Below, one piece after another: positions 11,873 through 23,305 of a DNA stretch of 23,409 nucleotides. This stretch comes from a virus. Numbering within the stretch: the stretch's first letter is position 1; each line of letters starts with the position of its first letter. Under the pieces are notes generated by a model. It did not search any database, was not told the origin of the DNA, and was given only the letters and a program-made list of their open reading frames with translations. The translations under genes were made by a program, and so were the position numbers. The DNA is taken from positions 1 through 23,409 of IMG/VR virus record IMGVR_UViG_3300025168_000695, one strand, 5' to 3'.

Positions 11873-12096
11873 TGAGTAAAAAGAAAGAAGCATTGCTGTT
11901 TAGGTTTTCTGTACTTTTAAACACAGAAGGCAGGATAGTTATCGAAGAAGATAATATAGATCCTGAAGAGTTTCAAGAAGCTATGGATAACTGGAATCCA
12001 GACTACCCAAATACAGCAATGATTGTAGCTATGATTAAAATGTTAGTTATGGCTGCAGCAGAATTACAAAGAGATATTAATAAAACTATTCATTAA
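11872..12096 (+). CDS. Small hypothetical protein, 74 aa, last gene of the replication arm
   Basis: This 74-residue protein begins at the TAATG junction with the reductase and is not recognised. An N-terminal strand (ALLFRFSVLL) is followed by an acidic linker (about residues 18-40) and a C-terminal amphipathic or hydrophobic helix rich in Ala, Met and Ile (about 49-66). By position it could accompany the reductase, but it has no cysteines and so is not a glutaredoxin. Its TAA (12094-12096) overlaps the stop of the opposing minus-strand gene and lies within an inverted repeat. Confidence 0.65.
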   Translation: MSKKKEALLFRFSVLLNTEGRIVIEEDNIDPEEFQEAMDNWNPDYPNTAMIVAMIKMLVMAAAELQRDINKTIH

Positions 12097-12101
12097 TATC
12101 T
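12072..12101. terminator. Perfect 10-bp inverted repeat at the convergent gene ends, candidate bidirectional terminator
   Basis: The arms AGATATTAAT (12072-12081) and ATTAATATCT (12092-12101) are exact reverse complements around a 10-base loop. The right arm contains both opposing stop codons. The stem holds only one G-C pair and no long T tract follows on either strand, so it is a weak classical terminator. A mild 3'-end hairpin or a site that limits collision of the two transcripts is equally possible. Confidence 0.45.
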
Positions 12102-12320
12102 AACTTTACGTACTCCACCACCCATAGCGTACTTCTTCACGTAACCACCACCGTATAGGTTCTGGTCTTCTGATGATCGTATTTTCATTTCTCTAGGGCT
12201 TTGAGCCATAGGTTTCATGTCCATAGCATCCTTTGTAGGTGTAGGCATCTGAGCACTCATGTCTGATCTACCCATCATACTCTGACTTTTGCTGTTATTA
12301 AGTTCATTTAGTTTAGCCAT
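12093..12320 (-). CDS. Small Met/Lys-rich peptide with C-terminal Gly-rich motif, 75 aa
   Basis: This is a 75-residue polar, probably disordered protein, with many Met, Ser, Gln and Lys in residues 1-50. It ends in a Gly-rich basic tail, YGGGYVKKYAMGGGVRK (56-72). Related tails or heads (aromatic residue, short spacer, GGG, often Val) appear in the neighbouring virion proteins at 20649 (RFSEGGGVAD) and 21470 (RFQEGGD), so it is probably a minor virion or assembly component. The start at 12320 has AGGAG seven bases upstream. Only two bases separate it from the 1807-residue gene, whose operon it ends. Its stop overlaps that of the opposing gene. Confidence 0.65.
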   Translation of the reverse strand: MAKLNELNNSKSQSMMGRSDMSAQMPTPTKDAMDMKPMAQSPREMKIRSSEDQNLYGGGYVKKYAMGGGVRKVRY

Positions 12321-12322
12321 TT

Positions 12323-15300
12323 TTATTCTCCTAATGTTATATATGCTTTTTTCTTAGTACCCAATAGTATGTCTAAAGGAATTGTTTCCAAATCACTTTT
12401 TATTTTATTTATTATTTGTAGATCTGTCGTGCCTTGTTTCTGTTCATTAAACATCCTTCCTATATATTTATGATAAGCCTCTCTTCTACTAAAATTAGAT
12501 GCATTTTCTGATCTTTTACCTTGTGTAAAATTATTTAAACTTTGATATTTGTCGGCTGTTTTTGAACTGAAAGGAAATAATTCTTCTGGGCTTATTTCTG
12601 GATATAAAGAATACATAGCCACTAAAAACTTATCATCATCAGACAGAGTTTGCTGTACATCCGTTAAAGCCTCTATCATATTTCCAGACATACCCACAGC
12701 ATCTGCAAAAAATGCTTCAAACATTTTGTAAGTTCTTGGGTCATTCATCCTTGCCTCAAAATTACCAGTAAGCATTATGTCAGTAACAAGATCTATAAAT
12801 TCACCATCAGCAGATAGCAATGCTGCCACAGCTTCTGCTTCTTTTTGTTTAGCAAGAGAAAACGTCATCTCCATCAACGGGTATCTTATAGAAGCACGTT
12901 GGCTGTACACAGCTGCTGCTCTAGACATCACTGTATTAAATTGCATCTTTGGTAAACCATGAGTCGGATCTTTTAAACTTAATTGAGCAGCGTCTGAACT
13001 TATAGTAGATAGTTTCATTATAACTTTTATTTTGTCGTACTTATCTTTTGTTAAATACTTTCTTAAAAACGCTTCGTTATTATCAAAAATTTCATACAAA
13101 GCTCTGCCATCAACATAGATCTCAGCTTCTTTTTTCATGCTGTTATCACCTATGCCGGCAAGTTCTCTAGGCCCTTCCTTATCTGTAGGGCTTAACTTAT
13201 CAAACTCTTTTAATTGGTTATCTACTTGTTTTTGTGTAGTACCATCTGGGTAATTTTCAAGATCAGCTCCTGCACTTCTTAAATTTTTATATCTATCAGT
13301 AGTTTGCCACTTATAACTATCAGTTGTTTTCGTTGCTTTTTGAGTTATTCCTACAGCAATTAATTTAGATACTGCATCTTTTGCTTCTTCCTCTGACATC
13401 CCATTGTCTATACTAGATTTAATAACACTATCTAATAGAGGGCTTGTTTCTTCTGTAGCCTCTCCTCTTAATGTTTTTTGAACACCTTCTACAGGAGAAT
13501 CTACAAAATGCATGTCTCCCATCATTATGTCCACAAAAGATTCAGCATTGGTTATTCTGTCTGTTTTACTTCCTTTAGAATTTAAATCCATGACCATAGA
13601 CTTTACAGCATTAGAATATTTTTTAGCTTCAGGAGCCGCTTTTTCTACTGCATTTGCTAGCTGCGTCATTGTTTGTGCTACTATTGGCCCGGCTTGATTT
13701 TCTATATTCATTCTAGTAAAAATCTCTTTATGAATATCAGTCCCCATTAGGTTAACATGTTTATTATTAGAATCACCTCTTATTTTTTTATCTAGTTCTT
13801 CTATTACTTTACCAAATTCAAGATGAGACCCTTCCCCAGTGCTGGTCAAATAAGCTGGAGTCTGTCCAAATTTAAGATTCTGTTCAAATTGTTTAAGACC
13901 TTTTACATCTTTAGATATCTTATTCCAATTCCATTTTCCACTAGCCTCTAATTCATTTAATGCTTTTTTGTGCCTAGCTGTTATGTACACATTAGCAGAT
14001 TTTAAAAAGTTTTGATACGAATGAAACAAACTATCACCTTCTTGTGGTAATCTAAATACATACACATTATCTTGAACATCTATTACTTCTCCATAGATAA
14101 CTTTTAACTCTTCATATATTTGTTTACCACTGTATTTACCACTAAACATCTCATCTAAAAATTTATTTTGATCTTTACTAAACATTCTTCCAGAAGCGTT
14201 ATTTCCGGAGTACATTTTTTTATTGCTAGGCAGTCCTGTTTTTTCATCTTTAAACTCTATTAAACTTTCTGCATCTTTTTTGGTTTTTCCTCTTCTATCA
14301 AGCCTTTGTGTAAATTTTGTTACGTCTCTTAATATAAGACTTTGACGTTGTCTTGCTTTTACAATACTATAATTTTCTTTTGCAAATGCAAATTGTCTAG
14401 CTGCCTTTGCGTAATTTTTTCTTAATTCTAAATCAAAAGAAACATCCTCTGCCCTACCTCTAAATACAGTAATTTTACTGTTTATTAGATTGTCTACATC
14501 ATTAGTAACTGTTTCCATCATTCTTGCTTTGGTTGAATCTGTTTTAGCAACATCTCTTCTAACAGCCGCAGAAAACTTACGCATGTTATAAACCTCTTCG
14601 AAAGACATTGTAAAATTAAAATTATATTTATCTTGAAGGTATTCTATCTGGTCTAGCGTATTAAATTTACCTTTTCTTTTAATCATATTTTCATCGGCTG
14701 CCATACCTTTGTTTATCATGGTTTTAGTTTTCTTAACATCCCAATCAGGTTTGTCTTTCATTATCCTAGCGGTTATTTTTTCTATAGCATCCGTCACTTG
14801 TTTCTTTTGTATTTTTTCTAAAAAGGGGTTTATAGCTTTAATAAAAGTATCATCTGCTTCTAATAGACCTCCAGACCTTGCCTTTTTATTTATTCCTATT
14901 AAAAATTCAGTAACATCAATGTCATCATCGCCCTTTTGTAAAGTAGAACCTATAAGATCAAATGCTTTTTGATACTGTGCACTGCCCCATACTTCGTGAA
15001 AATCTTCTGCTCTAGCTATGTTTACAAGACTAACAGTAGAGGCGTAGTTTTGTATATCTGCTGCAGCACCTATGTTTTGTCTTTTAACTTTAAAACCGTT
15101 TCCTTCACCGTAGTTTTGTATATTAGCATCAGTAAAAACAGGGTTTAATTTTATTAGTTCATCATCCATTTGTTCTGCGGCTCTACTATTAAATAAAGAA
15201 TCTAATTTTAATAAACCGTGTAAATCAAAAGTTTTTTTAGTTTGTGCTATAGTTTCATTAGACAACCTAAGACTTGGATTATTTTGTAATATCTCCATAA

Positions 15301-17746
15301 GTTCTCTGCCTGTATCTGTATCAAACTTGGTTCCCATTAATATTTCTGATACTTGTAATTGAACAGCTCTTTCTGTTAAGTAGGCTATCTCAGCATTTTT
15401 CTCTGTAGTCTCTCTTAATGTTTTTGCTGCTAAATCTTTAAAAGCATTTAAAGTAGGTAGATTTTTATCTTTTATTTCTTCAGATAAATTTGTTAAAACC
15501 TTACCTAATTCCATCTCTTGTTTTTCTCTTAAATTTCCTAACTCCATTGCCTTTTTAATAAACTTAAATTTTTGATCTATTTTTAAATCTTTACCGGCTA
15601 CCAGTTCTAACATTTGCATTTCTGCTTGTCTAAGACTAGCAATACCTGTTGCTGAACCTAGAGTTATTTGAGTTTTATTTACAACATCTCCCAAACCTAC
15701 TTCATCTGCTTCATTAAATAATTCTTCTACATACAATAAACTTTTTCTTATCTTATCTGCTTCTTTTTCATCGCTTTTATTTAATTTATAAAATGTTTGT
15801 AATACATTTCTTAAAATCTTTCTTTGACCCGGGTCTATGTCTTTACTAAATATAGGACTGGCTTTTTTTAATAAGGCATCTATAGCATCTGTAGGCTTAG
15901 ACATTATGTTTATCATCTTACGTAAACCCTGTGCGTCTGCTTTGTTTTGTGGTAAGATTGTTTTTAGACTGTTGTTAAGTGTTTCTACAACTGGTAATAC
16001 TTTACTTACACCATAATCTAATCCTGCCGCAGTGACTTTACCACCTATAATACCAGCTATGCTTGAAGTAAATGTTAAACCAAAATTTAACGCTCCTAAA
16101 GGGTCATCTTCTTTAACCATTTTAAGCTGTTCAAGGGCTGAGGGATATATCCACCTGTCAACAGCTTCTGTAGCAACCCCTATCATCGATTCTGTTCCAG
16201 CAAACTTTTTAAAAAATGTATAAGGAACATAACCAAACTCTGCCGCACCCAATCTCGATTCAACTTGGATGTACCTTACTATTCTATTATCATTTTTGTC
16301 TTTAGATTTTTTCCATTGTGTTTCTATAAGAGATTCCATCTCGTTGTATACAGTAGCCTGAGAAACAGGTATCTTTTTTCTTAACAAGTTCTGTTCAGCT
16401 TCTTTTGCTAATCTTGTAGAATAATTTACTGCTGTTTTTGCAAGTGGGGATAACACACCTAGGGCAAAAGAAAAGTCTCTTGCAAATATTCTAACAGCTC
16501 CAACTAATAAGTTTGGATTCTCAGAACCTTCCATTTGAGATAGAAGATCTTCTCCTCTTATTTCTTGCTTAGGCCAATCTGCAGATATTACTTTTGCAAT
16601 TTTATTATCATTGTAACTTACATTACTATCAATAAAAAATGTAGAATTAGGTTTATCTCCTAAATTCTTTTGTGTTGTAGATATAATACCCATGTAAGGC
16701 ACATGAAGTTTACTCATTATATCTGTCCACACCCCTCCTTTATCTTCAACTTTTTCTAAATAATTAGAAGATGCAGCTACGACATCTAATAACGCACCAT
16801 CAAGAGGAGGTATGATACCTAGTATCTGATCTAAACCACTAGCTACATCTGGGCTTAAAGAATAAAAATAGTTAGGTATAGCCATAGCACCGTTTTCGGC
16901 CAAGGTCATAAAACTAGCAACCATATCTTTAGTATCATTAGGCATGTTTTCTAATTGTTTTCTATCGTTTAACCAATTTAAATTTCTTGTGTAGTCTTTA
17001 GATGATTCCTTACGTACAGCCTGAGTTACTGCGTAAAGATCTCCTCTAGCAGCTAATAGTTCTTTACTTAAAGATTCTAAATTTTTATATGCTCCCGTGT
17101 AGAATTTCGCCCCACTTTTTTTTAGTTCATCATGTATTGACATAGCTGCATTAAATGCATCTTTAGGTGTTTTAGCAATGATTGTATAAGGATGTTCTTT
17201 ACCTCTAGGGAAATAATGATAATCAGCAGGGATGCCAGAATCAGGGTCGTACTCGTCTCCTATAGGCACTAAAGTAGAAAAAATAGGGTTATTTTCATCA
17301 CGGAAAGGTCTTTTTAAAACATTCTCTTGAAATATTCTTTCCTTTTGTTTCAGTATATCTGACTGTACTTTTGCTTTTTCTCTCTGTTCTAATATTTCTA
17401 CTTGTTCATCAAAAGAAAGATTATTTAATTCATTTACAGGAGATGTTTCCATTCCTAAAGGGCCGGCTGAAACAGATAATCTAGAAGGAGTTATCTTCTC
17501 TTTAAAAATACTAAATTTAGGTTTTACATAATCGGGTATTGTTTCTTTTTTAACTTCTTCAGGGTCTGGAATATTTTCTTTTTCAGTAAATTGTTCTTCA
17601 AGTGCAGGGTCTCCTTTTATTACTACAAACCCTTTATCAATAGCTTCTTTCTCAGGGACTGTCTCAGACCTTGAAGAAGAACCAAATAAAAACCCTTCAC
17701 TTCCTTCGTCTTCGGCTGTATCTAAATTTGTATTTTTATCTACCAT
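12323..17746 (-). CDS. Giant internal virion (ejection-type) protein, 1807 aa
   Basis: This is the largest gene of the window. The 1807-residue product is predominantly helical and rich in Lys, Glu, Asn and Leu, with an acidic disordered N-terminus (about 1-110). A Gly/Ala-rich hydrophobic stretch (NFGLTFTSSIAGIIGG, about one third of the way in) might insert into a membrane. It follows a 745-residue gene in the transcription order of T7 gp15-gp16; such core proteins are ejected into the host envelope and help form the DNA channel. It is larger than T7 gp16 (1318 residues). I saw no convincing lysozyme or transglycosylase active site and no polymerase motifs. The start has AGGAGA seven bases upstream (17754-17759). 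The virion role comes from position and composition and is reasonably safe; a specific enzyme is not. Confidence 0.72.
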   Translation of the reverse strand: MVDKNTNLDTAEDEGSEGFLFGSSSRSETVPEKEAIDKGFVVIKGDPALEEQFTEKENIPDPEEVKKETIPDYVKPKFSIFKEKITPSRLSVSAGPLGMETSPVNELNNLSFDEQVEILEQREKAKVQSDILKQKERIFQENVLKRPFRDENNPIFSTLVPIGDEYDPDSGIPADYHYFPRGKEHPYTIIAKTPKDAFNAAMSIHDELKKSGAKFYTGAYKNLESLSKELLAARGDLYAVTQAVRKESSKDYTRNLNWLNDRKQLENMPNDTKDMVASFMTLAENGAMAIPNYFYSLSPDVASGLDQILGIIPPLDGALLDVVAASSNYLEKVEDKGGVWTDIMSKLHVPYMGIISTTQKNLGDKPNSTFFIDSNVSYNDNKIAKVISADWPKQEIRGEDLLSQMEGSENPNLLVGAVRIFARDFSFALGVLSPLAKTAVNYSTRLAKEAEQNLLRKKIPVSQATVYNEMESLIETQWKKSKDKNDNRIVRYIQVESRLGAAEFGYVPYTFFKKFAGTESMIGVATEAVDRWIYPSALEQLKMVKEDDPLGALNFGLTFTSSIAGIIGGKVTAAGLDYGVSKVLPVVETLNNSLKTILPQNKADAQGLRKMINIMSKPTDAIDALLKKASPIFSKDIDPGQRKILRNVLQTFYKLNKSDEKEADKIRKSLLYVEELFNEADEVGLGDVVNKTQITLGSATGIASLRQAEMQMLELVAGKDLKIDQKFKFIKKAMELGNLREKQEMELGKVLTNLSEEIKDKNLPTLNAFKDLAAKTLRETTEKNAEIAYLTERAVQLQVSEILMGTKFDTDTGRELMEILQNNPSLRLSNETIAQTKKTFDLHGLLKLDSLFNSRAAEQMDDELIKLNPVFTDANIQNYGEGNGFKVKRQNIGAAADIQNYASTVSLVNIARAEDFHEVWGSAQYQKAFDLIGSTLQKGDDDIDVTEFLIGINKKARSGGLLEADDTFIKAINPFLEKIQKKQVTDAIEKITARIMKDKPDWDVKKTKTMINKGMAADENMIKRKGKFNTLDQIEYLQDKYNFNFTMSFEEVYNMRKFSAAVRRDVAKTDSTKARMMETVTNDVDNLINSKITVFRGRAEDVSFDLELRKNYAKAARQFAFAKENYSIVKARQRQSLILRDVTKFTQRLDRRGKTKKDAESLIEFKDEKTGLPSNKKMYSGNNASGRMFSKDQNKFLDEMFSGKYSGKQIYEELKVIYGEVIDVQDNVYVFRLPQEGDSLFHSYQNFLKSANVYITARHKKALNELEASGKWNWNKISKDVKGLKQFEQNLKFGQTPAYLTSTGEGSHLEFGKVIEELDKKIRGDSNNKHVNLMGTDIHKEIFTRMNIENQAGPIVAQTMTQLANAVEKAAPEAKKYSNAVKSMVMDLNSKGSKTDRITNAESFVDIMMGDMHFVDSPVEGVQKTLRGEATEETSPLLDSVIKSSIDNGMSEEEAKDAVSKLIAVGITQKATKTTDSYKWQTTDRYKNLRSAGADLENYPDGTTQKQVDNQLKEFDKLSPTDKEGPRELAGIGDNSMKKEAEIYVDGRALYEIFDNNEAFLRKYLTKDKYDKIKVIMKLSTISSDAAQLSLKDPTHGLPKMQFNTVMSRAAAVYSQRASIRYPLMEMTFSLAKQKEAEAVAALLSADGEFIDLVTDIMLTGNFEARMNDPRTYKMFEAFFADAVGMSGNMIEALTDVQQTLSDDDKFLVAMYSLYPEISPEELFPFSSKTADKYQSLNNFTQGKRSENASNFSRREAYHKYIGRMFNEQKQGTTDLQIINKIKSDLETIPLDILLGTKKKAYITLGE

Positions 17747-17749
17747 GTA

Positions 17750-19987
17750 CTACTCTCCTAATTTTTCTCTTAATTTATCTTGTAAACCTATGCTGTTATT
17801 AAATAATAGTAAAAAATTATCAAGATCCATATTCAATCCGTTCTTTACGCTAGCACCTTTTCTAAGGGTATTTTTAAAATCTGCTACCAAACCATTGACT
17901 ATACCTCTTTGCGTTTTTTCTGCTTGTGTATTATCCATTACATTTTCATCTAATGTGGCATTATAAGCCTTACTAAAAGCATTACCGTAATTTCCAATAG
18001 TTCCATATTTTTTTTGGTAATTAGAATTTGCGTCAGTAAACTCAACATTTAAAATACGAGCTATTTTATCTATCTCTTCCTGATCTTTTTCAACAGTTTG
18101 ATTAATGTTACTATCATCAGTTTCAGAAGATAAACTATCAAAAGGTATATTTGTATCCTTTATTAATTTTCTAGCCATAGCCTCTGCTCCAGAATTAAAT
18201 TCTCCTTTAGGAGCAAGACCTATATTAAAAATCCCTTGTGGGCCAGTCATTAACTTAGCCGCTCTGTATAAACTTAAATCTTCTTTACTTATAGCATTAT
18301 AAAATAAACCATGAAACTGTGCCACAGATTCCATATTATTTTTTATTTCTGTTATGACACTTTTAAAATCTGCCCCTGCTGTTAATATTCTTGCAGATAT
18401 TGCATTTTGCATTAAGTTAACGTCTTTATCAGATATGGTTCTACTATCTCCTCCTCCTTGAATAGCAGCCGCCATTTCAAAGGCTAATAAATAAGAATGA
18501 TATTTAATAATAGCTGTATTAGACTCTTTTATATTAGCTAAGTCTTTACTTCTAAATTCACTTTCTCCTTCTCTTCCAGCAGCAACCAGTGCTAATGAGT
18601 TATAAAATTGTTGATCATCCATATTATATTTCTGTTGTAATTCCTGCATAGTTTCTGTAGCACTTTCTAAATTTTTACTAGAGGTATTAAAAAGTCCATC
18701 TAAAAGACCTTCCCCACCTTCTGTTAACCTCACTCCACCCATGCCGGTAAGACTTTGAATTACTTTATTAAATTGGTTTTTAGAATCTTTTAAACCTCTT
18801 AGATATAGTTCCATTGTTTGAAACGCCCCTAGAGGAACAGTGGTATCACCTATGTTATTTAAAATACCCTTTGTTCTCTCTACCGATTTCATGGCGTTGT
18901 TATATGAATCTCTAGTTTTACCAAATTCTTCTTTATCAGATTTTATAGCTTGATCAAAACTTACTACTTTTAAATAATCTCCCTCTATATTTCTGTTAGC
19001 AGTTCTTTTTATATTTAAAGAAACAGCAGATTGTACATCTAAAGCATTGGGTAGGTAAAAACCTTTATCACTATTACTAGAATTTATTATTTGTGATAAC
19101 AGGGCATTAAGATTTTCTTTATTATTTGAAAGCTGTTTAAAACTTGTTCCAAATTTAGAAATTAAATAACCGGCATTTGCAATTGATATAGGATCTGCTG
19201 AATCAACATCCATACCTAGTTCTTCTTTTATTTCCTTACTAAACCCTCTCACTGCATTTACACCAGTTTGTAAATCTCCTCTAAGAGATCTACGTGTTAC
19301 TGCCCCTATTAAAAAATCTGCAAACTTAACCGGATCTACTTTTTCTCCGGCAATATTAGTTACTGTATCAAGTTCCTCATCACCGTATGTAGGTAAAATA
19401 TCTTTTATATTTTTGTTTTTAAGTAAATTGTAAGTAGCACTGTCGTTATTTAATAAAGATAAAACAGGGTTATTATATTTTCCTATAGGATAGTTGTATA
19501 AAAGAGTTTGATCTCTCGTAATCTCTTTATTTTTATTATTTATAAAACTAGTTTTTTGTGCCACATAAGGCTGTATTTTATTAAGCACTGACATAGCTTG
19601 ATTCTTCTCTTGCTCACTCCCGTTTTGTAAAAACTCAATAAAAGTTCTATTGTCACTAGATTGTAATCCTGTTTGCGATGTGTATAATTCAGAGAGAGGA
19701 GTATTCATAAAATCATTAACTCTACTTATATTATCATCGGATGCTAATATTTTATCAGACTCTGTATAATTACCTATTATGTTTGCATTGATTTGATTAC
19801 CATCGTTAAGCGTTAGATTACCAAAGTTAATAGTATTAGCAGAATCATTAACATTTTTATCAATACCAGCTTTGTATTTAACAGATTCTTGATATTTTAA
19901 TTTTTCTAACTCTGCAGCTTTCTTAGCAGCTATATCAGCGTTGTACCCATCAGCAAATCCTTTTGTAAATCCTCCAAAGAAACTCAT
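17750..19987 (-). CDS. Internal virion protein, T7 gp15-like in size and position, 745 aa
   Basis: The 745-residue protein is helical and very rich in Asn, Lys and Ser. The N-terminus is short and glycine/aromatic rich (FFGGFTKGFADGYN, residues 3-16) and is followed by a Lys/Glu/Ala-rich helix that may be a coiled coil. No enzymatic motif is seen. Its length is almost that of T7 gp15 (747), and it directly precedes the giant protein, as gp15 precedes gp16. In T7, gp14, gp15 and gp16 form the inner core that is ejected to build a trans-envelope channel. That role is inferred from synteny and size, not from visible sequence similarity. The gap to the upstream gene is one base, and a G-run precedes the start. 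Confidence 0.65.
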   Translation of the reverse strand: MSFFGGFTKGFADGYNADIAAKKAAELEKLKYQESVKYKAGIDKNVNDSANTINFGNLTLNDGNQINANIIGNYTESDKILASDDNISRVNDFMNTPLSELYTSQTGLQSSDNRTFIEFLQNGSEQEKNQAMSVLNKIQPYVAQKTSFINNKNKEITRDQTLLYNYPIGKYNNPVLSLLNNDSATYNLLKNKNIKDILPTYGDEELDTVTNIAGEKVDPVKFADFLIGAVTRRSLRGDLQTGVNAVRGFSKEIKEELGMDVDSADPISIANAGYLISKFGTSFKQLSNNKENLNALLSQIINSSNSDKGFYLPNALDVQSAVSLNIKRTANRNIEGDYLKVVSFDQAIKSDKEEFGKTRDSYNNAMKSVERTKGILNNIGDTTVPLGAFQTMELYLRGLKDSKNQFNKVIQSLTGMGGVRLTEGGEGLLDGLFNTSSKNLESATETMQELQQKYNMDDQQFYNSLALVAAGREGESEFRSKDLANIKESNTAIIKYHSYLLAFEMAAAIQGGGDSRTISDKDVNLMQNAISARILTAGADFKSVITEIKNNMESVAQFHGLFYNAISKEDLSLYRAAKLMTGPQGIFNIGLAPKGEFNSGAEAMARKLIKDTNIPFDSLSSETDDSNINQTVEKDQEEIDKIARILNVEFTDANSNYQKKYGTIGNYGNAFSKAYNATLDENVMDNTQAEKTQRGIVNGLVADFKNTLRKGASVKNGLNMDLDNFLLLFNNSIGLQDKLREKLGE
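17754..17759 (-). promoter_or_regulatory. Ribosome binding site AGGAGA for the 1807-residue gene
   Basis: Read on the minus strand, AGGAGA lies seven bases before the ATG at 17746 and inside the last codons of the 745-residue gene. The two genes are three bases apart, so translation is probably coupled. Confidence 0.6.
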
Positions 19988-19988
19988 C

Positions 19989-20645
19989 TTATAACATCCC
20001 CCCTTCTGGCATATCCGCCATTAATTCTTCATTTGATAAACCTTCTTCTACAGGTACTTCTACCATCTCATCAGGCATGACCTCTTGTACAGGTTCTAAA
20101 AACCCTCCAGATAACATCTCTTGTTCTACACCTGCTCTATTTGCACCTTCTTGTAAAGCCTCATAACCTGCAGGATTTAACTTACTCATGTTTCTTGCCA
20201 TATCACCCGGTTCCATTTTACCACCAGAAGTTTTCTCCGGATTGAAAACAACCATAGGTACATCTTCAGACATTGCTGTAATCATAAGGTACATAGCTAG
20301 CGGGGGCTTAATCAACTCCGCAACGTCAGGAGACCACTGGCCTTCTGAGAAACCTATAAAAGCAATGCTGTTTACAATAGACTCTATAGGAACACCTGAA
20401 GCTATTAAACTAAGCTGTTCTTCTTTAGCAGCCCTGTCAGTTTCTAGTCTTTCTATAATAAGTGCAACACATTCGTCTGGGTCAGTAAACTCAGCAGGCT
20501 TTTCAAATTTCTGACTTCCCGGAGCTACTGTTAAAGACTGTCCGGGCACTGGTGCGGAAAAAGGATCTATGGCTTCTACAGATCCGGGCTGTGGTTCTGT
20601 CCCCTCCGCTATATTGTCATTTGCTTTTTGCGGTTCATATCTCAT
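19989..20645 (-). CDS. Virion-associated protein with PGQSLT motif, 218 aa
   Basis: This is a 218-residue acidic protein. A Pro-rich N-terminal arm contains DPFSAPVPGQSLT (about 27-39), followed by an EKPAEFTDPDE segment and a helical domain (about 58-130, VALIIERLE, GVPIESIVNSIAF, GQWSPDVAELIKPPLAMYL). A very acidic C-terminus rich in Glu, Met and Pro (about 170-218) follows. The PGQSLT arm plus the helical domain resembles a conserved protein I know from marine myoviruses and pelagiphages, usually annotated only as a virion structural or hypothetical protein. It lies between the 274- and 745-residue virion genes in the place of T7 gp14. The resemblance is from memory, with no alignment. AAGGAC precedes the start. 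Confidence 0.55.
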   Translation of the reverse strand: MRYEPQKANDNIAEGTEPQPGSVEAIDPFSAPVPGQSLTVAPGSQKFEKPAEFTDPDECVALIIERLETDRAAKEEQLSLIASGVPIESIVNSIAFIGFSEGQWSPDVAELIKPPLAMYLMITAMSEDVPMVVFNPEKTSGGKMEPGDMARNMSKLNPAGYEALQEGANRAGVEQEMLSGGFLEPVQEVMPDEMVEVPVEEGLSNEELMADMPEGGML

Positions 20646-20648
20646 AGT

Positions 20649-21473
20649 TTATGTCCTTGTTGGTAGTGTAAAATTTACTTGTTGTGGAGTGACTGTATCG
20701 CTTACATATTTAGGCCTACGTACAGAAATCTTATCTGTAAATGAAGCTAACCCCTTAGTGTTCACTCCTTGCGTACCCATGTTAGCCATTAAAAACTTAG
20801 CTAAACTAGGACTTACATTAGGATTGAAAGCTCCTGCTAACTTGCTTGTTAGAGGAGTGTTCTGTGCTTGGCCTTTATTAAACTGTGCACCAGCAGACCC
20901 CCGTGCTCTTACAGTAGAGTTTCTAAACTTTTCCATATTCTCAAAAGGATCTGGAGGGCCTCCTCCGTTTTTCTGTTGGTTTACTAAATTTTTTAGAACT
21001 CTTTTTACCACATCGTTTTCTAAAACTACATCAGCACCTGCTTTAAATCTTTGCCAAAGAGAAGGTGACTTTGCAGGAGGATCACCTTTTAACATTCCTG
21101 TGTAGCCAATATTCCTAGCTGTTTTACTGTCGATAGTAGCGTAATTTGTAATTTCTCTAGATCTTGTTGGATTAGACATAGCGTACTGTTGGTAGCTGTT
21201 TGAAGACGATGGGCCTTGGGGGCCTTGGGCATATGATTGATAGTTGCTATAATCTGTAGAAGCCTTACGATAATTTGTAGGTTTTGATTTAAATTCTGAA
21301 GAAGTTCCATACGATCCATAACTGTCGTATCTGTCTGCAACTCCTCCTCCTTCACTAAACCTCTTAAAATCTCCTTTAGCAAATTCAATAGTCTTATCCA
21401 TATCTGTAGTAGCTAAGTCAAACAAACCTTCTTCGTTTCTAAAAACAGCCCTTAAACTATCTTTTAATTTCAT
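20649..21473 (-). CDS. Virion structural protein, Ser/Tyr/Gln-rich, 274 aa
   Basis: The 274-residue protein has a helical N-terminus (1-40) that runs into RFSEGGGVAD (38-47). A low-complexity segment rich in Ser, Tyr, Gln and Asn follows (about 48-115), with repeated Tyr-Gly and Tyr-Gln pairs. Then come a basic helix (WQRFKAGADVVLENDVVKR, about 140-158) and a Gly/Asn-rich C-terminus. This is not a recognised fold; the flexible Tyr-rich linker suggests a connector or tail-associated component. The gene starts inside the stop of the S74-domain gene (overlap 21470-21473, ATGA), so the two are translationally coupled and probably made in fixed ratio. It is likely part of the virion core or tail, by context. 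Confidence 0.6.
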   Translation of the reverse strand: MKLKDSLRAVFRNEEGLFDLATTDMDKTIEFAKGDFKRFSEGGGVADRYDSYGSYGTSSEFKSKPTNYRKASTDYSNYQSYAQGPQGPSSSNSYQQYAMSNPTRSREITNYATIDSKTARNIGYTGMLKGDPPAKSPSLWQRFKAGADVVLENDVVKRVLKNLVNQQKNGGGPPDPFENMEKFRNSTVRARGSAGAQFNKGQAQNTPLTSKLAGAFNPNVSPSLAKFLMANMGTQGVNTKGLASFTDKISVRRPKYVSDTVTPQQVNFTLPTRT

Positions 21474-23305
21474 ATTACCATCTCCATGTTTACATCTAAT
21501 AAATTATAATTAACTTTATAATAACCCATACTATCTGTAATAACAGCGTTTGGATTTATTTTTATAATCTCTTGTGCCATAACCCCTCTGTACCTACGGT
21601 CTTCATCCCATATATAATTCCATTCATACATATTTAATCCAGAAGAAGATTTTCCTATACTTATTATATTAGTCTTTAATCGAATATCAGAAGTTCTTGT
21701 TGCTAAAGCTAAGGCTACATTATAACCGGCCTGACCTAAAGAAACAGCAACAGAATCTTCAAACTGTTTATCGTAAAATTCTGATTGAGCATCTGCTTCT
21801 TGTGCAATCATAGCAGATTGGTGTGCTCTTTGCAGAATACTTTCACTAGAAGACATGACCCAAGTAGCCTCGTCTCTGTACCTCTGCCACAAATTAGCCT
21901 GTGCTTGTTTGTTTAAACTTAACAGGTTTGCCGTATTTATTCTATTACTTTCATTCTGTGCAGCAGTATCTCTAGTATTTATATCTCTTCTCCACTGTGC
22001 ATTTGACTGTAGGATTTGCGTAGCCATATTAGCATCGAACTTATCTCTACTATCTTGCATCTGTGCTGTAAACCTATTCATAGCATTTGCCTGATCAGCA
22101 TTGACCTGTGATATAGATGCTTTTCTATTATTGTTTGAGTTACCTATCTGTGCGTTTAATTCTAAAAAGAACTCATCTACTTCATTTTGTGTTTTAGCAT
22201 TAAACTGTCTAGAAGCATTCTCTTGTGATATATCTGTTAACATCTTCTGCATGTTTGTCTGATGATTTATCTCATTAACTCTCTGTGCATTATCCATATC
22301 TTTAACGTCCAAAGTTAAAAATGCTTTTGCATTATCTACAGCAGCTGTCAACCTAGCACTCATATTTGCCTTATCCATCGCAGCATACGTCATTGCATTC
22401 TGTAAAGTAGCTTGCTGTGTGTTGTTTAGATTAGCTAAATCCACAGTAGAATAAGTCTTAGCATCCTGTGCAGCAATTGGTATAGCAGATTCATAGATAG
22501 CATTAGTTATTGCAGCAGCAGCCATTGAAGAAGAACCTAATCCTCTTTGTTGCATGATAGCTCCTACCTTACGTACAGCAGGGGCAGCCCACGCAGGAAG
22601 AGTATCGCCAGAATCTAATGCTGTAAACAAGGATTCAATCTGTCCTTTTACCGTACCTAAATTAGATACTTGAGCAGTAGCTCCGGTGGATACAGACTCA
22701 GAAGATACTGTGCCCATCACAGCAGCTGTCTTTGCAAACTCAGTAGGGTCTCCTATAATAGAAGAAGGAGATACAGAACCTTGTGCAGCCGCAGCTTGAG
22801 GAGTGTTCTGTTGAGTGTAAGCAGAGTACGTGTTAGCAGACTGTATAGCAGGTATAGACACATCTGTTGCAATTGCACCTGAAGGTGTCAGTGTTGGAGT
22901 AGAAGGTAATTGTGTCATATTACCTTGTCCAAAATTAATCAATTCATCTGTGGCTACTGTAGTTGTCACCGGAGCTACAGTTTCTCCTTCAGTCAATCCT
23001 AGTTTTTGATTTGGTAATATTCCACTAATCGGTCTTGTTACAGGAAGGTCTGTTATGTTTTCTTGAGTAGATTGTGTTACAGCAGTGCTAGGAAAACCTG
23101 TAGTTTCTCCCGTTTGTTGTACACCAGCTGTTCCTGCACCCCCTATTGTAGTAGGTAAATTCTGTCCGGAAGTTCCCGGATACTGGTTGTATACAGGAGT
23201 AGTTTCTTCAGTAGTATCTCCACCTTCTTGAAACCTAGGTAGAACCTTTTTCATTCTCCTAGCGTAGCCTCCTCCAGCTTTGTGTAAATCTGATAATCTA
23301 GCCAT
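21470..23305 (-). CDS. Virion protein with C-terminal peptidase S74 / intramolecular chaperone domain, 611 aa
   Basis: The protein has four parts. The N-terminus is Gly-rich and basic (RFQEGGD, 24-30), followed by a long Thr/Pro/Gln linker (about 31-200). A conserved-looking domain (LPAWAAPAVRK, QRGLGSSSMAAAA, about 236-282) follows. A very long Asn/Gln/Ala-rich helical stretch spans about 283-525. The C-terminus is a short S74 domain (539-611). The Ser539-Asp-Ile-Arg-Leu-Lys544 motif has the Ser/Lys dyad spacing of self-cleaving chaperone domains (endosialidase, Peptidase_S74), and GVMAQEI is the second family motif. In known members the domain trimerises the preceding part and then cuts itself off before the Ser, which here would release about 73 residues. 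The domain call is firm. The body is helical rather than a typical beta-helical fibre, so a tail or ejection role remains open. Confidence 0.82.
   Translation of the reverse strand: MARLSDLHKAGGGYARRMKKVLPRFQEGGDTTEETTPVYNQYPGTSGQNLPTTIGGAGTAGVQQTGETTGFPSTAVTQSTQENITDLPVTRPISGILPNQKLGLTEGETVAPVTTTVATDELINFGQGNMTQLPSTPTLTPSGAIATDVSIPAIQSANTYSAYTQQNTPQAAAAQGSVSPSSIIGDPTEFAKTAAVMGTVSSESVSTGATAQVSNLGTVKGQIESLFTALDSGDTLPAWAAPAVRKVGAIMQQRGLGSSSMAAAAITNAIYESAIPIAAQDAKTYSTVDLANLNNTQQATLQNAMTYAAMDKANMSARLTAAVDNAKAFLTLDVKDMDNAQRVNEINHQTNMQKMLTDISQENASRQFNAKTQNEVDEFFLELNAQIGNSNNNRKASISQVNADQANAMNRFTAQMQDSRDKFDANMATQILQSNAQWRRDINTRDTAAQNESNRINTANLLSLNKQAQANLWQRYRDEATWVMSSSESILQRAHQSAMIAQEADAQSEFYDKQFEDSVAVSLGQAGYNVALALATRTSDIRLKTNIISIGKSSSGLNMYEWNYIWDEDRRYRGVMAQEIIKINPNAVITDSMGYYKVNYNLLDVNMEMVI

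Follow-up and report, generated by a model that had tools for sequence, protein, structure and literature searches.

A short Peptidase_S74 domain on a predicted helical, possibly ejection-type protein of an HMO-2011-type podophage

The Peptidase_S74 (S74) domain is known for maturing beta-structured fibres and, in animals, for freeing the transcription factor MyRF. In the viral record IMGVR_UViG_3300025168_000695, analysed over its 23,409 nucleotides (hereafter the window), an S74 domain closes a 611-amino-acid protein of a marine phage whose body reads as helical. What could such a domain be doing there? The contig represents part of an HMO-2011-type podophage: a class II ribonucleotide reductase, a DNA polymerase, a DnaB-like helicase and a Cas4-type exonuclease are encoded to the left, and virion-type genes lie to the right. 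Our verdict is that the protein represents a real, recurring variant, an S74 core without trimerisation helix on helical ejection-type proteins. The explanation that we favour, tentatively and with somewhat less than an even chance of being right, is an internal ejection-type virion protein, similar to T7 gp14 or P22 gp7, with a removable, self-cleaving C-terminal cap. The protein and its parts are as follows:

21470..23305 (-): 611-amino-acid HMO-2011 gp25-type protein with C-terminal S74 domain, putatively ejection-like (open reading frame, Pfam, homology)
22736..23218 (-): low-confidence linker rich in Thr and Pro, residues 30-190 (29% Thr plus Pro; block predicted local distance difference test, pLDDT, 34-63)
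22520..22546 (-): RGLGSSSMA, residues 254-262, predicted break between helices (G255 near-invariant in the family alignment; AlphaFold2)
22250..22528 (-): predicted long helix, residues 260-352 (AlphaFold2)
21920..22231 (-): predicted long helix, residues 359-462 (AlphaFold2)
21683..21910 (-): predicted long helix, residues 466-541, modelled through the putative cleavage site (AlphaFold2; pLDDT below 50 at 520-522 and 524-538)
21692..21757 (-): hydrophobic segment just ahead of the S74 serine, residues 517-538 (collinear with the natural C-termini of S74-less relatives)
21473..21691 (-): short S74 domain without C-terminal alpha4 helix, residues 539-611 (Pfam, alignment, model, profile search)
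21689..21691 (-): codon of Ser539, predicted catalytic serine and cleavage point (alignment of S74 domains)
21674..21676 (-): codon of Lys544, predicted catalytic lysine (alignment of S74 domains)

The open reading frame starts with ATG, preceded by AGGAG, and overlaps the next gene through ATGA. Pfam places Peptidase_S74 at residues 539-588 of 611 (E value 1e-8; 35.7 bits against a cut-off of 22), in agreement with the preliminary description of this DNA, and in a relative from another contig (L030, 72% identical) the domain occupies the same position. Within it, differences are roughly twice as frequent at third codon positions as at first and second ones; this excess and the shared placement in L030 argue that the tail is more than a chance match. 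The domain had been called short, at about 73 residues, and exactly 73 residues separate Ser539 from the last residue, counting both, a length that proved to be a trait of a whole class (see below). The two proposed dyad residues, Ser539 and Lys544, are present and lie five positions apart, the spacing of the known S74 dyad. Both are kept in all 17 S74 domains of the family and in 13 of 13 aligned S74 domains (picked for similarity to the window domain), at identities to the latter of 35-52%. S74 domains work by a serine-lysine dyad (excerpts of PMC8326128), and self-cleavage of the 611-amino-acid protein is judged probable.

The domain nevertheless amounts to an S74 core only, corresponding to the span of the 58-position Pfam model. 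It stops at residue 73 and no alpha4 trimerisation helix, of the type present in MyRF and endoNF, appears in its model; solved S74 chains extend 41-66 residues past the matched stretch. Profile searches matched the domain to MyRF (7dc3, E value 4e-5), a neck appendage (3gud, 1e-4) and a fibre (6f45, 2e-4), all of which have the core fold and the Ser-Lys dyad in common with it, and 7dc3 superimposed with a Z score of 3.7 and a root-mean-square deviation of 2.0 over 52 residues. According to excerpts of PMC8326128, the MyRF domain follows a beta-helical stalk and has alpha4, whereas the window domain has neither; the alpha4 coiled coil is the main driving force of trimerisation in the solved MyRF domain, and cleavage takes place in trimers only. 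With alpha4 absent, the oligomer would therefore need to come from the helical body.

That body was modelled with AlphaFold2 on the full-length protein (64 sequences, mean pLDDT 64, predicted template modelling score 0.28). The prediction is all-helical between residues 260 and 541, with the three long helices listed above and, at block pLDDT values mostly of 81-90, a compactly folded S74 domain, although the template modelling score leaves the relative placement of the helices unfixed. A beta-helical body, named beforehand as the outcome that would speak against a helical bundle, was not predicted. The segment previously read as one helix of 240 residues rich in Asn, Gln and Ala is helical in the model and contains 38% of these three residues (1% Gly) over positions 299-538, but it covers approximately 280 residues in three helices. 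The Thr/Pro linker and the conserved RGLGSSSMA, also pointed out earlier, were both recovered, and the N-terminus is basic and ends in FQEGG. The model supports a helical body, and a non-fibre role is likewise supported. It is very improbable that the protein is an external tail fibre or spike, binding receptors or sitting at the tail tip, with a body that is helical in prediction only. S74 is classically a fibre domain, the window S74 on its own matches 21 PHROGs, most of them tail families, and DB virus 2 gp18, with a short S74, is annotated ‘tail spike protein/chaperone’; on the other side, the model contains neither a beta-helix nor a beta-structured body, and beta-type residues ahead of S74 are fewer than in the long-S74 proteins described below.

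Is the S74 domain necessary for such a body? Searches with the 611-amino-acid protein matched 30 phage records, 27 through the body and 3 through S74 only, and at least 556 IMG/VR stretches are homologous to it. The body homologues include HMO-2011 gp25, CHOED_13, CRP-738 gp24 and RCA/pelagiphage proteins labelled hypothetical. Two family alignments comprised 63 and 61 relatives besides the window, and S74 was present in 12 of 80 IMG/VR relatives (in L107 it begins at SDTRLK). A tree of 97 bodies (the window, 17 of the 27 body-matching phage records and 79 IMG/VR sequences; S74 columns and 3 duplicate IMG/VR bodies left out, L007 unused) was built by a quick method with support from the SH-like approximate likelihood ratio test only. 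S74 occurs in 17 of its 97 rows; the tree requires at least four gains or losses, three of them forced by branches starred for support. The window forms a starred clade (support 100) with L030 and with L005, which is 71% identical and has no S74; this clade is nested in one of 21 rows that is otherwise S74-less. A second group, containing the CRP-738, CRP-3, CRP-235 and CRP-212 types, carries the domain in 15 of 17 rows, and these four likewise end in a short S74. S74 is thus an optional, modular add-on in the HMO-2011 gp25-type family.

The same counts bear on what the preliminary description had proposed, namely chaperone-assisted folding of a helical bundle rather than a receptor-binding fibre. 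The doubt about a fibre was borne out, the chaperone role was not. On this explanation S74 trimerises, helps to fold the body into a bundle, and then leaves behind a structural rod or needle in place of a membrane-active ejection protein; S74 domains are indeed known trimerising chaperones (excerpts of PMC8326128), the predicted body is long and helical, and the domain follows directly after the last helix. However, 80 of 97 family members, L005 included, combine a body of this kind with the absence of S74, so that the domain is not generally required for folding, and alpha4, on which MyRF chiefly relies to trimerise, is lacking here. We consider the chaperone explanation unlikely.

If S74 is optional, what would its removal leave? 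L005 can be aligned with the window protein as far as residue 537 and ends six residues later. From a conserved arginine (R493) to the C-terminus, S74-less rows span a median of 43 residues (interquartile range 41-51, n=80), and from the same arginine to the S74 serine, S74 rows span 39 (38-49, n=17). Both stretches are hydrophobic. Ahead of the serine, the best 15-residue hydrophobicity window has a median of 1.37, whereas the body has -0.11 (n=17, p 2e-11), and S74-less C-termini reach a median of 0.85 against -0.15 (p 3e-30, n=80); these p values take no account of relatedness among the sequences and treat the many background windows as independent. The best window exceeds 1.0 in 16 of 17 S74 rows and in 37 of 80 S74-less rows. 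Because the junction is collinear and the stretches on both sides of the comparison are hydrophobic, a cut before Ser539 would yield a C-terminus like that of the S74-less proteins, and this restored C-terminus is the core of the cap hypothesis.

The position of the gene in its block suggests where such a protein might act. The four genes that follow it are:

20649..21473 (-): second gene of the block, 274 amino acids, overlapping the S74 gene through ATGA (no family match in Pfam or PHROG)
19989..20645 (-): 218-amino-acid protein kept across HMO-2011-type phages (comparison with relatives)
17750..19987 (-): 745-amino-acid protein, about the size of T7 gp15 (747 amino acids by coordinates; one weak PHROG match)
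12323..17746 (-): 1807-amino-acid protein in the position of T7 gp16 (gene order; no PDB or PHROG match)

The order is thus 611, 274, 218, 745 and 1807 amino acids, with the S74 gene upstream of two much larger ones, and by order and size alone it resembles that of a podophage ejection protein. In relatives a conserved protein of 164-208 amino acids comes next after the homologue of the S74 gene, and after it two larger genes. HMO-2011 gp25-type proteins (CHOED_13, CRP-738 gp24, CRP-3 gp24 and HTVC033P gp56) share with the window protein the homologous helical body, the place in the gene series and the hydrophobic C-terminus, whereas their records annotate hypothetical proteins and most of the family lacks S74.

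T7 gp14 is the first of gp14-gp15-gp16, spans the outer membrane and, in the ejected state, forms a helical hairpin with a Gly-Ser-Ser motif (excerpts of PMC11784390). The excerpts describe a channel of six gp14 copies, each of two antiparallel helices and a short loop, with mature residues 87-100 unmodelled; since GSSM of gp14 lies at 92-95, we infer that it belongs to the loop. Against the full-length model, two gp14 chains ranked second and third by VIA-align Z score, 7ey7_A at 5.9 over model residues 199-307 and 9jz0_0 at 5.8 over residues 191-310, and three of 82 Foldseek candidate chains for the domain model were gp14 (Z 4.1-4.6). RGLGSSSMA resembles both EGSSM of T7 gp14 and GGLGSTATS of P22 gp7, a likeness that is statistically not significant. 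T7 gp14 differs from the window protein in its length of 196 amino acids and in lacking S74, and its fold match to the window is weak. On the strength of gene order, this weak structural likeness and the shared Gly-Ser motif, an ejection role for the 611-amino-acid protein appears fairly likely.

Other phages have short S74 domains on proteins homologous to P22 gp7. The S74 proteins of PAE2, H6/1 and PVA1 match phrog_598 through their N-terminal parts (6e-30, 4e-16 and 4e-17), the family that includes P22 gp7 itself (2e-95); a tblastn search with the PAE2 body retrieved four records, itself included. These proteins share with the window protein the Gly-Ser motif and, on the favoured explanation, the character of a smaller ejection protein, and in H6/1 and PVA1 the smaller ejection protein precedes further injection-type genes. 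Three consecutive H6/1 genes are annotated as ejection proteins, the S74-bearing one being the first, and the record attaches the label pfam13884 to an ejection protein. The S74 protein of RHph_Y1_10 is followed by two annotated injection proteins, and Salmonella phage 7-11 and Aeromonas phage APT65 carry S74 on a protein annotated for DNA ejection or injection. In Vibrio phage PVA1 the gp7 homologue with S74 (L025 6395-7216) is unannotated in KJ395778 and stands directly before an annotated DNA injection protein.

P22 gp7 itself has no S74. It ends in GGGIGLLGSLF, and it is such a hydrophobic, Gly-rich segment that directly precedes S74 in proteins of the PAE2, H6/1 and PVA1 type and forms the natural end of gp7. 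Its 20 N-terminal residues are removed by OpdA of the host (excerpts of PMC8402733; record note), and according to the same excerpts their deletion has little effect, gp7 is present in about twelve copies, and residues 21-154 mediate binding to the procapsid. A C-terminal cap therefore need not disturb incorporation.

Put together, the favoured cap explanation would run as follows. During assembly, S74 domains would meet on oligomers of the helical body; Ser539 and Lys544 would cut ahead of Ser539 and the domain would be released. The mature protein would then end in the hydrophobic ...YNVALALATRT, of the same type and at the same position as the ends of S74-less relatives, and this exposed tail might act on the outer membrane at ejection. 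The ejection role, the oligomerisation, the cleavage and the membrane action of the tail are steps that we infer. The built-in cutter could be regarded as a phage-encoded counterpart of the OpdA trimming of P22 gp7, at the opposite end of the protein.

Several results weigh against this explanation, chief among them the lack of any known family for the body once S74 is removed and the weakness of its fold match to T7 gp14. Residues 1-538 without S74 matched no PHROG at an E value of 0.1; seven of eight S74-less relatives also matched none, and CHOED_13 matched one weak family of unknown function. Matches to PHROGs labelled ‘DNA ejection’ or ‘virion structural’ were rejected as support for the body, as S74 alone yields them: its best PHROG is phrog_6121, followed by phrog_4287, and the 13 of 64 members that match phrog_6121 equal in number those that carry S74. 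Some of the S74 domains in phage records that lie closest to that of the window sit on ejection proteins; like the PHROG ranking, this is informative on the domain and not on the body. A profile comparison of the body with the P22 gp7 group gave an E value of 0.16 and a probability of 0.4%, with the Gly-Ser motifs aligned. Foldseek found no match to the model below an E value of 0.001 in the PDB; ten such matches among predicted viral structures were five nameless proteins, two DUF4214, two S74/ICA and one uncharacterised. The Z scores of gp14 are no higher than those of unrelated helical rows and lie below the trust level of the tool for helical models, and the domain-only model (pLDDT 59.5) is worse than the full-length one. 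The body profile matched only NEMO coiled coils in the PDB, probably artefacts of composition. MyRF is cleaved only in trimers, which alpha4 mainly drives (excerpts of PMC8326128), whereas the window S74 has no alpha4. PHROG matches of the later genes of the block are weak only, that of the 745-amino-acid protein being to a tail protein (E value 0.0095), and family profiles of the 745- and 1807-amino-acid proteins found nothing in the PDB, so that the block is unproven as an ejection cassette. No virion proteomics was found for the HMO-2011 gp25-type family.

How widespread are short S74 domains, and on what do they sit? Two surveys of IMG/VR were made, each biased to its seed. The first, which started from the window S74, yielded 80 loci, of which 66 were usable and distinct (dropped were 8 duplicates, L164 running off its contig, L170 with little body, L183 with an early end, and L188-L190, which could not be parsed). 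From the serine to the stop, 44 domains measured 62-80 residues and 22 measured 87-111. The second survey, seeded with CRP-738 S74, gave 78 new loci, five of them unparsed and two of the remaining 73 open-ended; all 71 closed reading frames had tails of 70-81 residues (conservation of the lysine was built into the pattern of this survey and was not used). Many long domains end in a VPLLIEAIKEL-type helix, taken for alpha4, and a pattern for it matched 17 of the 22 long domains and none of the 44 short ones; the counts are descriptive, as the pattern was composed after inspection of six long examples.

The missing alpha4 pattern is what an alternative of quite low probability would build on: a cleavage-competent trimer may not form, and the short S74 would no longer cut and would be retained as a docking or plug domain at the portal, scaffold or nozzle. 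The retention of serine and lysine in every family and aligned domain at such modest identity argues against this, and a folded domain would have to traverse the portal channel at ejection.

Long S74 domains mostly come after sequence that, judged by eye, is of beta-type fibre character, and short ones in most cases after a segment that is either hydrophobic and rich in Gly and Ala or amphipathic and rich in Lys. The best hydrophobicity window ahead of the serine exceeds 1.0 in 25 of 44 short and 3 of 22 long cases. A few short domains follow fibre-like sequence (L114, L124, L158), and the border between the length classes is imperfect, since two long cases depart from it: L112 resembles the short class in its upstream part, and L120 is not fibre-like. 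Bodies compared with PHROGs without their S74 (counts being per family, not per body) matched, in the short group, phrog_598 (DNA ejection, 5/44), phrog_6121 (virion structural, 4/44) and phrog_4287 (DNA ejection, 3/44), all other families, named fibre families among them, occurring once each among the 25 of 31 families listed. In the long group fibre families are matched by up to 6 of 22 bodies, among the 25 of 76 families listed. Both distributions speak against the fibre interpretation discussed above. Two Burkholderia phage JC1 proteins, gp57 and gp59, were considered as short-S74 proteins and rejected: in the excerpted text of PMC9144972 their S74 domains start at residue 255 of 356 and 248 of 348, which places them in the long class, consistent with their tail fibre label.

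Five short-S74 proteins of approximately 300 amino acids (L115, L126, L134, L140 and L141) have a Lys-rich amphipathic segment (KKVFKGVKKVTKKATNFVKKLF-like) ahead of the serine that resembles membrane-active peptides; the body of L115 has no PHROG match.

When profiles of four body groups and of P22 gp20 were compared with one another, none of the ten pairs was significant. It is possible, though we regard it with some doubt, that short S74 domains are a class apart, acting in cis as maturation proteases of podophage ejection proteins and shuffled among unrelated families of these; they would cap a membrane-active C-terminal helix until the oligomer has formed, cut without alpha4 by way of the oligomer of the helical protein that hosts them, and leave a C-terminus of the uncapped type. 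Were this so, S74 would gain a further role, in the maturation of virions; this would help to rename proteins like DB virus 2 gp18, and there would be a handle on how a membrane-destined protein is kept harmless inside the assembling head. Under the cap explanation the mature chain should end one residue short of the S74 serine. No paper joining S74 to ejection or injection proteins was found in searches of the open-licence literature, while some database records make the link; S74 is absent from the text of PMC10386132 (podovirus structure modules), and ‘ejection’ and ‘peptidase’ are absent from that of PMC6918029 (RCA phages).

Among the surroundings of the gene, ten neighbouring products were run against Pfam. 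The gene after the S74-gene homologue resembles a cell-wall enzyme in some relatives: L006 3556-4686 has a sub-threshold SLT match, and the CRP-207 product, L015 4265-5881, a LysM domain above cut-off and a sub-threshold Glyco_hydro_19. Pfam found neither SLT nor LysM in the 274-amino-acid protein of the window, and a neighbouring product of HTVC104P has a sub-threshold Senescence match. One Manatee Spring podovirus record contains a homologue (L017 1951-4542) annotated ‘huntingtin’, perhaps on account of its composition.

Finally, a GGxVKKYxxGG-like motif is repeated in several virion-type proteins of HMO-2011-type phages. It was found in a 75-amino-acid protein of the window, 12093-12320 (-) (GGGYVKKYAMGGGV), in HMO-2011 gp25 (KGGMIRKMQTGGSV) and in CRP-1 (EGGMVKKYQEGGDV); the homologues concerned, in L003, L006, L013 and L016, have it in their N-terminal parts. 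A looser form, identified by eye, occurs at the N-terminus of the window S74 protein, 23219-23305 (-) (YARRMKKVLPRFQEGG). The motif might serve these proteins as a common tag for sorting or assembly.

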